NCBI GenBank assembly: GCA_016839765.1
Contig: JAEOTP010000043.1
Span: 1 to 64,000, forward strand
Length of the DNA: 64,000 nt
Direction of reading: 5' to 3'
Source of the DNA: Promethearchaeota archaeon
GTDB lineage: Archaea > Asgardarchaeota > Lokiarchaeia > Sigyniarchaeales > SOKP01
The notes beneath the pieces are model-generated. The model worked only from the letters and a program-made list of their open reading frames with translations. It was not told the origin of the DNA and made no database searches. Position numbers and translations under genes: made by a program. Shown here in pieces: positions 1,134 through 59,895 of the stretch; the stretch's first letter is position 1, and each line of letters starts with the position of its first letter.

Positions 1134-1991
1134 AATTTTATAATGTTGATTAATGTGTTTGATAAACCCTTCTTTTAACATTGTATTTAAAATTTTTTTC
1201 ACTCTCTCTGGATTTTTATCAATTTGTTGAATTATATCCATTTCCTTCAATGCCTTTTCTTTAAGTAGTATTTTTAAAATTGATCCTCTTATCTCTCGAT
1301 TAGATCCTTTGAATTTAGATTGTTTTCGGTAATGAGCACTCTTTTTATTTAGTTCTGGATGGGTCTTTTTAAGCATCACTCCATAATCCATTAAACCGTA
1401 ATACCATTCTCTAGGATTTGAAAGATCTATTACTTTTTTGGCTATTGTTAAAATGTCTTTATCATATACTATACTTTTGTCTTGAAAAAAGAAGTAGATA
1501 TACACTCTTCTAATATTTGTCTCTATAAAATAAGTAGGAATATTAAACGCAAAAGTTAATATTGATGAAGCGGTGTTAATTCCAATTTGTGGAAAAGATT
1601 TGAGAGTTTCAAGATCAGCAGGTAATTTCTCATTATAATTATTAACAATTATTTCAGCAATATTTTTCAAGGCAATAGCTCTTCGATTATACCCTAATCC
1701 CTGCCAAATATTTAAAACAGCCTCAAGTGGGGCTTTTGCTAATGTATTAAAATCAGGAAATTTTTTTATAAATTCCATAAATTTTTCAGATACCCTACTT
1801 GTTTGAGTTTGCTGAAGCATTATTTCTGAAACTAAAATTCTATATGGATTAATATTATTTCTAAAAGGAAAATTTCTCCCAGATTTTTTATAATATGAAT
1901 GAATTATTTCTTGGAAAGTTTGTATTACTTTTTCTGTTAACCCTTCTTTCTTGTAAAGCTTATAAAAATCATGAATTAATATTTTTTAGCA
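1125..1991 (-). CDS. MutY-like HhH-GPD DNA glycosylase
   Basis: Base-excision-repair glycosylase of the A/G-mismatch (MutY) type. The first in-frame ATG (1818-1820) would cut the conserved N-terminus. Reading upstream to a GTG at 1989-1991, just after a stop, recovers the family hallmark NPYRILVSEIMLQQTQ, so I choose GTG, giving 288 aa. Also visible are GLGYNRRA and the helix-hairpin-helix FPQIGINTASSIL. Two oddities: the position of the usual catalytic Asp (LDGNVKR in E. coli MutY) is Glu in FIETNIRRV, and the four-cysteine iron-sulfur loop is missing (the region after MDYGVM has no cysteines). The C-terminus looks like a small winged helix. A related small subfamily without the cluster exists, so exact substrate is uncertain. 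Confidence 0.8.
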
Positions 1992-17639: not shown

Positions 17640-17746
17640 TTAATTAAGATTTTGGATTTTGTTTTTATTTCGCACTATTCAAATTTTTCTATTTATTAAA
17701 GGAGTTTTTATTTCTCAATCTAAAATATTTATTGAGGAGATATAAA

Positions 17747-18361
17747 GTGGAAGTTATTGAAGAGAAAATTCAAGCACAAAAGAGTGAATCAACTGAATTT
17801 ATACAAATTATGATAAAATGTCCAGTATGCAAATTAAAAAAAAAGTTAAAATTTCCTAAATCAGTTATCAATTATACGAAGCAGCTTACAACTATATCTA
17901 TTCCAAAAGGCTTAGTATGTGAACATCATTTTCAAGCGTTTGTAGATAAAAATTTCATGGTACGCGGATATCAAAAAGTAGATTTTGAATATGCTTCTGA
18001 GTTAGTTAAATCCAAAAAATTAACCCAGAAAGACGGTAATGGTAAAGATAAAGAATTTTCTGAGTATATAATCATTGAAGAAAATTACCTTGCGTATAAA
18101 CCAAAAGAAAATCAAATTATAATCGAAAGAAAGTATAATAACAATGACCTAAAGAAGGCAATCGAGAATAAAGCAAATTCAGTAGATATAAAAAGTACAT
18201 TATTAAAAAGAAATACTAAAAAACTTATTGATAAGAAATCAAAAATGAAACTTGAAGATATTTACGATGAGTTTTGGGATTTTATTGACGAGAATAATAA
18301 AGATTTTCAAAAACTTATCCAGGATGATCACAGACGTGAAACTTTAACAAATAATTTTTAA
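17747..18361 (+). CDS. Cys/His-motif protein, probably Asgard-specific
   Basis: Start is set at GTG 17747 because a GAGGAG ribosome-binding site ends 7 bp before it; a TTG at 17732 overlaps that site and is rejected. The protein (204 aa) has CPVCKLKKKLKFP (C-x2-C) followed 35-40 residues later by GLVCEHHFQAFVDKNF. This could form a small zinc site. I have seen similar cysteine-pair plus CEH-type segments only in Asgard-like proteins, from memory. The C-terminal half is charged and helical and lacks recognised domains. Function unknown; DNA or protein interaction is a guess. Confidence 0.55.
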   Translation: MEVIEEKIQAQKSESTEFIQIMIKCPVCKLKKKLKFPKSVINYTKQLTTISIPKGLVCEHHFQAFVDKNFMVRGYQKVDFEYASELVKSKKLTQKDGNGKDKEFSEYIIIEENYLAYKPKENQIIIERKYNNNDLKKAIENKANSVDIKSTLLKRNTKKLIDKKSKMKLEDIYDEFWDFIDENNKDFQKLIQDDHRRETLTNNF

Positions 18362-18440
18362 ACGAATCAAATTATTTTTTTTCTCTTTAAATCTTCTTAT
18401 TGATGTGAAATAATCTTTATTAAACAATTATATTTTGTAA

Positions 18441-18581
18441 TTATTAAAAGCAATTATTAAAAAAATTGAAGAAGCCCTCACTTATAATCTAAATTATACG
18501 GGACTTAAGCGTGAGAAAATGAAAGAATTAAATATTTATGGCAATAAATTAGTAAACGATTTAAGGAATTATTTAAGTTAA
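18441..18581 (+). other. Possible start-less micro-ORF (about 40 aa)
   Basis: Frame open between stop codons at 18438-18440 and 18579-18581, encoding KAIIKKIEEALTYNLNY and then YGNKLVNDLRNYLS. It looks like an amphipathic helical peptide rather than random translation. It has no ATG, GTG or TTG before the helix, though ATT codons occur (compare the S26e and TFB starts). A direct repeat AATTATTAAAA sits at its beginning. Could be a fragment of a larger lost gene. Confidence 0.25.
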
Positions 18582-18619
18582 CTATTGAGAAGTAATAAGT
18601 GCCAAGGGCGAGATTTGAA

Positions 18620-18650
18620 TTCGCGATTCATCGCAAATCGCGATGAAATT
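18620..18650 (-). other. Intron-like insertion at the T-stem/T-loop junction of tRNA-Phe
   Basis: 31 nt between T-stem strand GCGAG and T-loop TTCAAAT. The RNA strand begins AATTTCATCGC and contains a perfect 8-bp hairpin TTCATCGC-GATTT-GCGATGAA, then TCGCGA, which is self-complementary and repeats exon sequence at the variable-loop/T-stem border. This fits an archaeal bulge-helix-bulge intron at about position 53/54, known from some Thermoproteales. Exact splice sites were not determined. Confidence 0.6.
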
Positions 18651-18686
18651 CTCGCGATACCCAGATCTTCAGTCTGGTGCGTTCCT

Positions 18687-18717
18687 ACCCAAAATGGAGG
18701 GTAAAGCTCCCATGATT
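18687..18717 (-). other. Intron-like insertion in the D-loop of tRNA-Phe
   Basis: About 31 nt follow the conserved GG of the D-loop (bases 18718-18719). The RNA strand folds as ATGGGAG-CTTTAC-CCTCCAT, seven pairs with one G.T wobble and one mismatch. Boundaries are approximate because the D-loop length varies by a few bases between species; without the insertion the D-loop would be about 13 nt. Confidence 0.55.
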
Positions 18718-18820
18718 CCGGGCTACGCCACCTTGGCTCTTTTGGAATTTTAAAATTTTTGGGGTTTCAAAATTCGTAATTTAAAAAGTATAAAATATCA
18801 TATAAAGTTTTTTAGAACAT

Positions 18821-19564
18821 CTATTTTTTTAATATTTCTGCCCTCTTTTCCATCACAAGTTTTTCGCTAGCATATCTGAGGATTAAACGAGTAAATCTAT
18901 ACTTATTTTCCATTAGATATTCATAGATTAATTCGGGTTTATACTTTGAGCATGTTTTAAGAAGCCAGCCTATACCCTTCTCAATATAATTTTCATTAGA
19001 AAATTCTAGCATTTTTTGCACAAGGTTATATACATAATCCTTGTCAAATTCCTTTCTTACCATGATAATTTTAAGTAAAAGAACCATAGAACCCCGTTTT
19101 ATCCAAAAATTTTTAGAATTAGCCCATTCATTAATGGTTCGCTTAGCTAATTCTTCATTTCCTTTTTTAGCTAAAAATGGACCTAAAACTCTTATACAAG
19201 AACTATCTAAAACGCTCCAGGTATGGCAATTTTCTAAAAGTTCATCATGAAAAAGTTTAATTGTATTTTGAGTAAAAAATTTCTTAAATCGATTTAGAAA
19301 AAGAAATCCTGCTAATTTTTCTTCCTCGATGTTAGATCTTATTAACTCTTTATAAATCTCAGCGGCATCATTGTAAGTACAGTCAAAGTTATCTGAAACT
19401 GTTTTAACAATCTTATCAATTGTAGCAACTCTGATGCCATATATTTCATAATTATCATTATCAGGGTTTATTATTTTATACATTCGATTCATTTGTTCTT
19501 CCGTTAAATTAGATTTATTCTGTAATAATAACTTTCTTATTTCTTTAACGGCTTTTTGTATCAT
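18821..19564 (-). CDS. AlkD-like DNA alkylation repair protein
   Basis: 247 aa of HEAT-like helical repeats. The family region YGIRVATIDKIVK near the start, LAGFLFLNRFKK, then ENCHTWSVLDSSCIRVLGP, WANSKNFWIKRGSMV and EKGIGWLLKTCSKYKPELIYEYL match the AlkD/AlkC-type DNA-glycosylase superfamily (PF08713), which removes bulky N3- and N7-alkylpurines by encircling DNA. AlkD uses Trp and Asp residues around the lesion; the equivalent Trp in WSVLDSSC and ENCHTW is consistent. It lies 59 bp from the next gene on the same strand (19624), a radical SAM repair-type enzyme, so the two may form a DNA-repair operon. Confidence 0.8.
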   Translation of the reverse strand: MIQKAVKEIRKLLLQNKSNLTEEQMNRMYKIINPDNDNYEIYGIRVATIDKIVKTVSDNFDCTYNDAAEIYKELIRSNIEEEKLAGFLFLNRFKKFFTQNTIKLFHDELLENCHTWSVLDSSCIRVLGPFLAKKGNEELAKRTINEWANSKNFWIKRGSMVLLLKIIMVRKEFDKDYVYNLVQKMLEFSNENYIEKGIGWLLKTCSKYKPELIYEYLMENKYRFTRLILRYASEKLVMEKRAEILKK

Positions 19565-58854: not shown

Positions 58855-59895
58855 TTAATTAAAGATTTTTGTTATTTCATCAATTTCAGAATAAGTAAAG
58901 GGTTTTTTGATCCCTTCTTTATCTATAATTACGTTTTTTTGATTCTCAGTGGTAAATTTGCCAATAATTTCAGCCGTTACCTTTTTTTTTTTTAAAAATT
59001 CAACTAAATCCAATGCATATTCATTTTTAATTGAAATAAGTAGTGATCCAGAAGATATAGTACCCATTGGGTTTAAATTAAATACTTTACTTAACTCTAA
59101 TGGCTCTGGTAAAATTAATATTTTTTCTTTTTCCACTAAAACTCCTTTATTTGATGCAATAGTCAGTTCGGCAATACCTGTAGAAAGACCTCCTTCTGTA
59201 GGATCGTGCATTGCATTTATTTTAAAGTTTTTATTAGCTAAAAGGGCTTCATTAAAAATACTAATACCAGGATTAAATAGGTAATTTTTGCATTTATCTA
59301 TGAAATTTTTATTATATCCCTTCTGTAATAAAAGATCTTCTTTTTCTCTCCCAATGATCGAAGTTCCTTCAATAAAAATGCCTTTTGTTAAAATTAGTGA
59401 ATCATTTGGTAATACACCAGAAGATTTTACTAATTTTTCTTTTTCAACCTCTCCCAACAAGGATCCTATTACAATTGGCCTGTCAATTCCAACGGTCACC
59501 TCAGTATGGCCTCCTATCACTGATATATCTAATGAATCACATGTATCATGAATACTTTTGAAAATTTCCTCTATTAATTCTTCGTTAGTTCTTTTTTCTG
59601 GTAATAAAATAGTTGATTGAAACCATTTGGGGGTAGCTCCAGTGCATACTACATCATTAACATTAATAATTACAGAATAATAACCTATCTCGTCTGTAGC
59701 AAAAGTAATAGGATCAGTTTTTGCAACTAGATATATATCTCCCATATCAATAACAGCTGCGTCTTCACCAATTTTAGAGCCTAAAATTATCCTTTTATCT
59801 TTATTTTCAAAATCTGTAACAAAATCCTTAAGGATATTATTCAAGAATTTATGTTTTATTTTTCCAATGCTAAAAAATCTATTAGTTTTTTCCAT
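58855..59895 (-). CDS. HypE-like AIR-synthase-family protein
   Basis: 346 aa with the AIR synthase/HypE fold: GSKIGEDAAVIDMGD, KTDPITFATDEIGYYSVIINVNDVVCTGATPKWF, IGGHTEVTVGIDRP, MHDPTEGGLSTGIAEL, and GTISSGSLLISI. HypE makes the thiocyanate donor for NiFe-hydrogenase. The usual HypE C-terminal PRIC cysteine tail is lacking (ends SEIDEITKIFN), so this is a HypE-like paralogue or other ThiL/PurM-related protein rather than a certain HypE. Confidence 0.75.
   Translation of the reverse strand: MEKTNRFFSIGKIKHKFLNNILKDFVTDFENKDKRIILGSKIGEDAAVIDMGDIYLVAKTDPITFATDEIGYYSVIINVNDVVCTGATPKWFQSTILLPEKRTNEELIEEIFKSIHDTCDSLDISVIGGHTEVTVGIDRPIVIGSLLGEVEKEKLVKSSGVLPNDSLILTKGIFIEGTSIIGREKEDLLLQKGYNKNFIDKCKNYLFNPGISIFNEALLANKNFKINAMHDPTEGGLSTGIAELTIASNKGVLVEKEKILILPEPLELSKVFNLNPMGTISSGSLLISIKNEYALDLVEFLKKKKVTAEIIGKFTTENQKNVIIDKEGIKKPFTYSEIDEITKIFN

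Follow-up and report, generated by a model that had tools for sequence, protein, structure and literature searches.

Two predicted non-canonical introns in the probably only tRNA-Phe gene of a Lokiarchaeia archaeon, and a homing endonuclease relic at its 3' border

The closest described counterparts of the gene analysed here are tRNA genes of the Thermoproteales (Pyrobaculum and others), where several short non-canonical BHB introns per gene occur together with an (alpha-beta)2 EndA; the intron sites listed for them include 53/54 and 59/60 (PMC4090602). In the present case the host is an Asgard archaeon, and that list, closing with 'etc.', does not name the sites 19/20 or 15/16. Among Asgard archaea, Atabeyarchaeia and Freyarchaeia, which belong to other classes, have introns in 92-95% of their tRNA genes, many of them non-canonical and over half of the genes multi-intron (PMC11291895); neither endonuclease types nor flanking nucleases are treated in the accessible part of that report. 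Two-intron tRNA genes are already known from Thermoproteales and from other Asgard classes (PMC4033280, PMC11291895). The published maximum is three introns per archaeal tRNA gene (PMC8450103, PMC4033280), whereas seven genes in the relatives considered below have four each. For Lokiarchaeota, a T-arm intron has been reported in tRNA-Sec (PMC5330540), a different tRNA from the one treated here; the tRNA-Sec of the present genome (L028) is uninterrupted and fits the family model over 89 nt. The mechanism of tRNA intron transposition was called unknown by a 2014 review (PMC4090602).

We analysed a stretch of 64,000 nt of contig JAEOTP010000043.1, called the window below. The tRNA-Phe gene in it consists of the following features.

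18600-18737, minus strand: tRNA-Phe(GAA) gene, 138 nt including the discriminator A73, without an encoded CCA
18737 and 18600, minus strand: ends of the gene, G1 and discriminator A73, respectively
18718-18737, 18651-18684 and 18600-18619, minus strand: the three exons
18661-18677, minus strand: anticodon arm CCAGACTGAAGATCTGG, uninterrupted, with the anticodon GAA at 18668-18670
18685-18717, minus strand: D-loop intron, 33 nt, between positions 19 and 20 (G19/G20)
18620-18650, minus strand: T-arm intron, 31 nt, between positions 53 and 54 (G53/U54)

Read on the minus strand from 18737 to 18600, the gene is GCCAAGG UG GCGU AGCCCGG (33 nt) GA ACGC A CCAGA CUGAAGA UCUGG GUAUC GCGAG (31 nt) UUCAAAU CUCGC CCUUGGC A. 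All stems are completely paired (acceptor 7 bp, D 4 bp, anticodon 5 bp, T 5 bp), and excision of both inserts gives a perfect 74-nt tRNA that ARAGORN calls tRNA-Phe(GAA), a call that it makes for neither the unspliced nor the half-spliced forms. The spliced sequence equals that of an intronless relative (L098) except in the T-stem. The same two excisions were chosen by an unsupervised search that combines the BHB rule with a cloverleaf score (14 tRNA genes of the window's genome). A preliminary description of the window had placed a GAA tRNA with two non-canonical insertions at 18600-18737, and this holds to the exact coordinates. Chance is not the explanation, since the spliced 74-mer is called as Phe and the exons recur in relatives. 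Its expectation that standard scanners would miss the gene is also borne out: neither ARAGORN nor Rfam at the gathering threshold reports it. Annotations of such genomes will therefore miss single-copy tRNAs. The fold of the precursor is 4 s.d. better than those of shuffled sequences. For very short introns taken alone, such tests are weak, and no conclusion is based on them. When the whole precursor is folded, its minimum-free-energy structure lacks the cloverleaf with both BHBs.

A single Phe anticodon arm occurs in the genome, and no other tRNA-Phe was found, so that the second, uninterrupted copy named in the preliminary description as part of a refutation did not turn up; the completeness of the MAG is 96%, which leaves room for a further Phe gene outside the assembly.

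Both introns show the archaeal BHB arrangement, that is, a 4-bp central helix with 3-nt bulges on both sides and the cut after the second bulge base, and their excision leaves a canonical tRNA by the ARAGORN call. Two exceptions to the strict form are seen: the inner bulge of the D-loop intron is enlarged, and the outer helix of the T-arm intron is missing. In the D-loop intron, the central helix is GCCC/GGGU and the cleavage bulges are GG^A and AG^G; in the inner part, the internal loop is enlarged and leads into a hairpin in which one G is bulged, and the intron can also form a competing internal helix. Because of the enlarged inner loop and the competing helix, we class this motif as a relaxed BHB. 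In the T-arm intron, the central helix is CGCG/CGCG, the bulges are AG^A and AA^U, and the inner helix has about 9 bp with one bulged U; lacking the outer helix, it is of the HBh' type.

These details refine the first reading of the inserts. The 31 extra bases do lie between T-stem and T-loop, exactly between GCGAG and TTCAAAT, and no insertion is present at 37/38, as had been stated. A D-loop of 44 nt had been described, which is correct for a 3-bp stem; with the 4-bp D-stem the loop is 9 + 33 = 42 nt. Each insertion had been credited with its own hairpin. That of the T-arm insert, UUCAUCGC/GCGAUGAA, is perfect, but the D-loop pairing proposed at that time, ATGGGAG/CCTCCAT, contains a mismatch and is best replaced by AUGG(G)AG/CUCCAU with a bulged G.

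The genome encodes two EndA proteins (PF01974), one alpha and one beta, and two copies are the rule among relatives. The alpha subunit has the Tyr/His/Lys triad that is required of the (alpha-beta)2 type, and the solved structures closest to it are the EndA chains of A. pernix. A lysine equivalent to A. pernix K44 in the Crenarchaea-specific loop (CSL) is present in all 19 aligned Asgard alpha proteins; in the 201-aa protein of the window's genome it is Lys59 by our count. The M. jannaschii EndA homotetramer is without the loop in the alignment. The beta proteins lack the loop and have an incomplete triad: the catalytic His is lost in 17 of 17, whereas Tyr is kept in 15 and Lys in 16 of the 17. 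The EndA type to which the literature attributes relaxed substrates is the type found here (PMC12397907, PMC4090602). One RtcB is encoded (match at 1e-170). The preliminary description had predicted a heteromeric or relaxed endonuclease and had suggested inspecting the EndA family; a catalytic alpha with the CSL lysine and a beta without His are what the genome encodes, in agreement with such an enzyme.

The gene, its exons, the BHB geometry, its single copy and the coding of both EndA subunits and RtcB can be read from the sequence itself. Taken together, the geometry of the inserts, the perfect spliced tRNA, the sole Phe copy and the presence of EndA alpha, EndA beta and RtcB argue strongly that this is a functional spliced gene of a known kind. 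We are thus confident that, as judged from genomic evidence, it is the functional and probably the only tRNA-Phe of this archaeon, with two non-canonical BHB introns that would be removed by heteromeric EndA and exons that would be joined by RtcB. In this process, a 138-nt precursor would be transcribed, alpha, with its Crenarchaea-specific-type loop, and beta would assemble as (alpha-beta)2 and cut within the bulges, at the junctions of the D-loop intron with G19 and G20 and of the T-arm intron with G53 and U54, and RtcB would ligate the exons into the 74-nt tRNA and presumably circularise the introns. The range of multi-intron tRNA genes, described above all in hyperthermophilic Crenarchaeota, would then extend to Lokiarchaeia with a matching two-subunit, loop-bearing EndA. 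The link to Crenarchaeota drawn in the preliminary description is right as to the kind of introns but not as to the host, which belongs to the Lokiarchaeia (Asgard). A crenarchaeal host is ruled out because, if a few bacterial matches due to chance are set aside, the exact tRNA-Phe pattern matches that carry organism names come from Lokiarchaeota MAGs.

For comparison, we collected 41 distinct tRNA-Phe genes, the window's included, from exact pattern matches and up to 96 related genomes. When the predicted introns are excised by the same rule, all 41 genes yield 74 nt with 5 of 5 T-stem pairs, and their mean identity to the spliced exons of the window's gene is 97.6% outside the T-stem. Introns of one site share about 50-80% identity, compared with 93% for exons. 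The set contains 100 introns at about nine sites, with zero to four per gene: 15/16, 19/20, 22/23 (one intron), 30/31, 37/38, 51/52, 52/53, 53/54 and 59/60, where 58/59 and 59/60 are counted as one ambiguous site. At one extreme, the gene of L098 is intronless with the same exons; at the other, seven genes (L245, L247, L229, L231, L235, L236 and L115) have four introns each and use 191-203 nt to encode a 74-nt tRNA. The 19/20 site is occupied in 19 of the 41 genes, and a 53/54 intron with a CGCG/CGCG helix is also found in another genus (L117). The central helix covaries with the exon, being CACC/GGTG or CACT/AGTG at 30/31 and TCGG/CCGA or TCAG/CTGA at 52/53, although many of the CACT cases retain a G-U pair instead of a compensating change in the intron.

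These regularities bear on the idea that the window's gene is a pseudogene inactivated by two insertions. Such a reading would account for insertions in two conserved arms of a gene that standard scanners miss, but every stem is intact, the gene is the sole tRNA-Phe found in the genome, and across the 41 genes the intron sites are conserved and the exons constant while the intron interiors vary; we regard inactivation as highly improbable. Within a single genus, the exons hardly differ, but introns may be present or absent, sit at different places and have different sequences, which makes tRNA-Phe a natural experiment on intron gain and loss. In a small endA gene tree, the sister pair formed by the window's genome and its close sister (G000/G023) is fully supported, and the deeper forks are mostly weak; nonetheless, every common intron site requires several changes on this tree.

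A hairpin core, GCGATTCGC or GCGAATCGC, is common to introns at three T-arm sites, 52/53, 53/54 and 59/60 (L175, L117, L047, L069, L177). All 8 of its occurrences in the 556 kb of DNA searched lie within tRNA-Phe T-arm introns, a pattern that hints at site shifting of one intron family. The hairpin core TGCGATTCGCA is absent from the window's genome.

The 3' flank of the window's gene, which the preliminary description passed over although its reading of the gene and introns stands, has the following features.

18441-18581, plus strand: LAGLIDADG_3 homing endonuclease relic, a 46-codon C-terminal piece, convergent with the tRNA gene, with 18 nt between its stop and the 3' end of the tRNA
17732-18361, plus strand: host gene, located directly after tRNA-Phe in many relatives and separated from it by the relic in the window
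18436-18822: segment in which long matches to the sister genome (G023) are lost; only 18655-18737 of the tRNA gene aligns inside it

The relic aligns with the C-terminus of a protein encoded beside tRNA-Phe in G030 (L068) with a score of 118, the best of 1000 shuffles being 55, and with the corresponding protein of G034 with a score of 65; by tblastn, it is found at E 2e-8 with 50% over 40 aa. It lies outside the LAGLIDADG domain, which is present in the intact G034 and G030 proteins, both assigned to LAGLIDADG_3 (PF14528). The sister genome is 92-95% identical to the window up to 18435 and 88% from 18823 on. Its tRNA-Phe has the T-stem GAGGG and an intron at 59/60, whereas that of the window has GCGAG and an intron at 53/54, so that the T-arm has been replaced between the two, also a point overlooked before.

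Nuclease genes are frequent at this position. A LAGLIDADG or PD-(D/E)XK gene, intact or decayed, lies 3' of tRNA-Phe in 11 of the 41 genes; otherwise, the usual neighbour is the homologue of the ORF at 17732-18361. Both the window and G008 have the nuclease between this gene and the tRNA. The proteins at tRNA-Phe in G028 and G010 belong to PDDEXK_5 (PF11645). In 97 Asgard genomes, homologues of this PD-(D/E)XK family occur in nine, in eight of them beside tRNA-Phe (L209, L210, L211, L212 and L213 intact; L214, L216 and L217 with internal stop codons), so that the PF11645-type family is almost confined to the 3' side of this gene. Some tRNA-Val and tRNA-Thr genes with introns likewise have a LAGLIDADG gene no more than about 150 nt away (L188, L191, L192, L194, L203). 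In total, LAGLIDADG homologues are near tRNAs at 8 of 30 loci, against about 0.1 expected by chance under the assumption of independent loci, which related genomes are not.

One possible origin of the window's allele, compatible with the functional, spliced gene described above, is homing: a LAGLIDADG enzyme would have cut the resident allele, and repair would have copied the donor's T-arm with its 53/54 intron, perhaps the whole gene, together with a nuclease gene that has since decayed. The T-arm swap relative to a sister that is 92-95% identical next door coincides with the inserted relic, and in G034, where tRNA-Phe shares this T-stem and the 53/54 intron, an intact LAGLIDADG gene lies at a distance of 1 nt. 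The repeated presence of two unrelated nuclease families at the site, including PD-(D/E)XK in eight of its nine genomes, points the same way. Co-conversion of short hairpin BHB introns by a neighbouring homing enzyme is known from the 16S rRNA of Pyrobaculum oguniense (PMC4496867). It does not fit so well that the relic is nearer to the protein of G030, whose gene is 9 nt from a tRNA-Phe without a T-arm intron, than to that of G034, or that many T-arm introns have no adjoining nuclease. The association between nuclease and T-stem introns is weak (Fisher p = 0.03, phylogeny uncontrolled), and a simple association with T-arm introns of any kind falls short of significance (p = 0.23).

We consider homing with co-conversion about equally likely as turnover independent of the nuclease, in which ordinary recombination or intron transposition would account for the gain, loss and shifting of introns, and the flank 3' of the tRNA would be no more than a safe place for nuclease genes to settle. 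Turnover is high even at sites and in genomes without an adjacent nuclease. In G008, two tRNA-Phe alleles (L187/L177 on C61 and L047 on C71), of which one is separated from the host gene by a LAGLIDADG gene and the other is not, have identical intron sites, 15/16 and 59/60; they may represent a strain mixture. In Heimdallarchaeum, the HeimM2 homing-enzyme element lies between the 16S rRNA and tRNA-Arg genes (PMC8813620). What this leaves unexplained is the coincidence of T-arm swap and relic in the window's species.

An integrase-bearing element that attached at the tRNA 3' end and left its own 3' half is unlikely. The model has been published for another archaeon, for the tRNA-Thr of Caldiarchaeum (PMC3293823), and tRNA 3' ends are common attachment sites; the flanking proteins, however, match LAGLIDADG_3 and PDDEXK_5 rather than integrases, and no duplicated tRNA fragment was noticed in passing.

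Returning to homing, we tentatively propose that the short, non-coding tRNA introns of Lokiarchaeia may spread and relocate through free-standing LAGLIDADG and PD-(D/E)XK genes at the tRNA border, with a decayed footprint of the process in the window. If true, this would explain in concrete terms how archaeal tRNA genes gain introns, and the flanking genes make it specific enough for in vitro tests. In P. oguniense, a short hairpin BHB intron is co-converted by a homing enzyme encoded next to it (S1205, S1213), but the gene is an rRNA gene and the enzyme lies inside a second intron rather than beside the gene (PMC4496867). In phage collaborative homing, a free-standing homing enzyme likewise serves an intron without its own ORF, but the introns are self-splicing group I introns instead of BHB introns (PMC3984707). 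In the open full-text literature, we came across no paper that connects the tRNA introns of archaea with homing enzymes in the flank; the nearest is that on HeimM2, where a homing-endonuclease-like gene lies exactly between the 16S rRNA gene and tRNA-Arg(TCT) of an Asgard genome, in an 8-kb element and, in the accessible part, with no tie to tRNA introns drawn (PMC8813620).

Several minor observations concern other genes. In a survey of the window's genome with the Rfam model, 15 of the 28 detected tRNA genes have introns, and 11 have one or more non-canonical introns by our tally; this census is a lower bound because the model itself misses tRNA-Phe. A tRNA-Glu(TTC) gene (L024, 1501-1641) carries two introns, one of 35 nt in the D-loop and one of 31 nt near the T-stem, the latter again with CGCG/CGCG as its central helix. 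A tRNA-Arg(TCT) gene (L019, about 1494-1598, minus strand) has a 30-nt D-loop intron of repeated CCAG/CTAG units, and is reported by ARAGORN as uninterrupted with a different 5' end. The window also contains an ORF at 58855-59895 on the minus strand that resembles selenophosphate synthetase. In the tRNA-Phe of G030 (L253), the 5' acceptor strand GTAAAGG pairs incompletely with CCTTGGC and the introns look intact; decay or editing is a possible cause of the mismatch.
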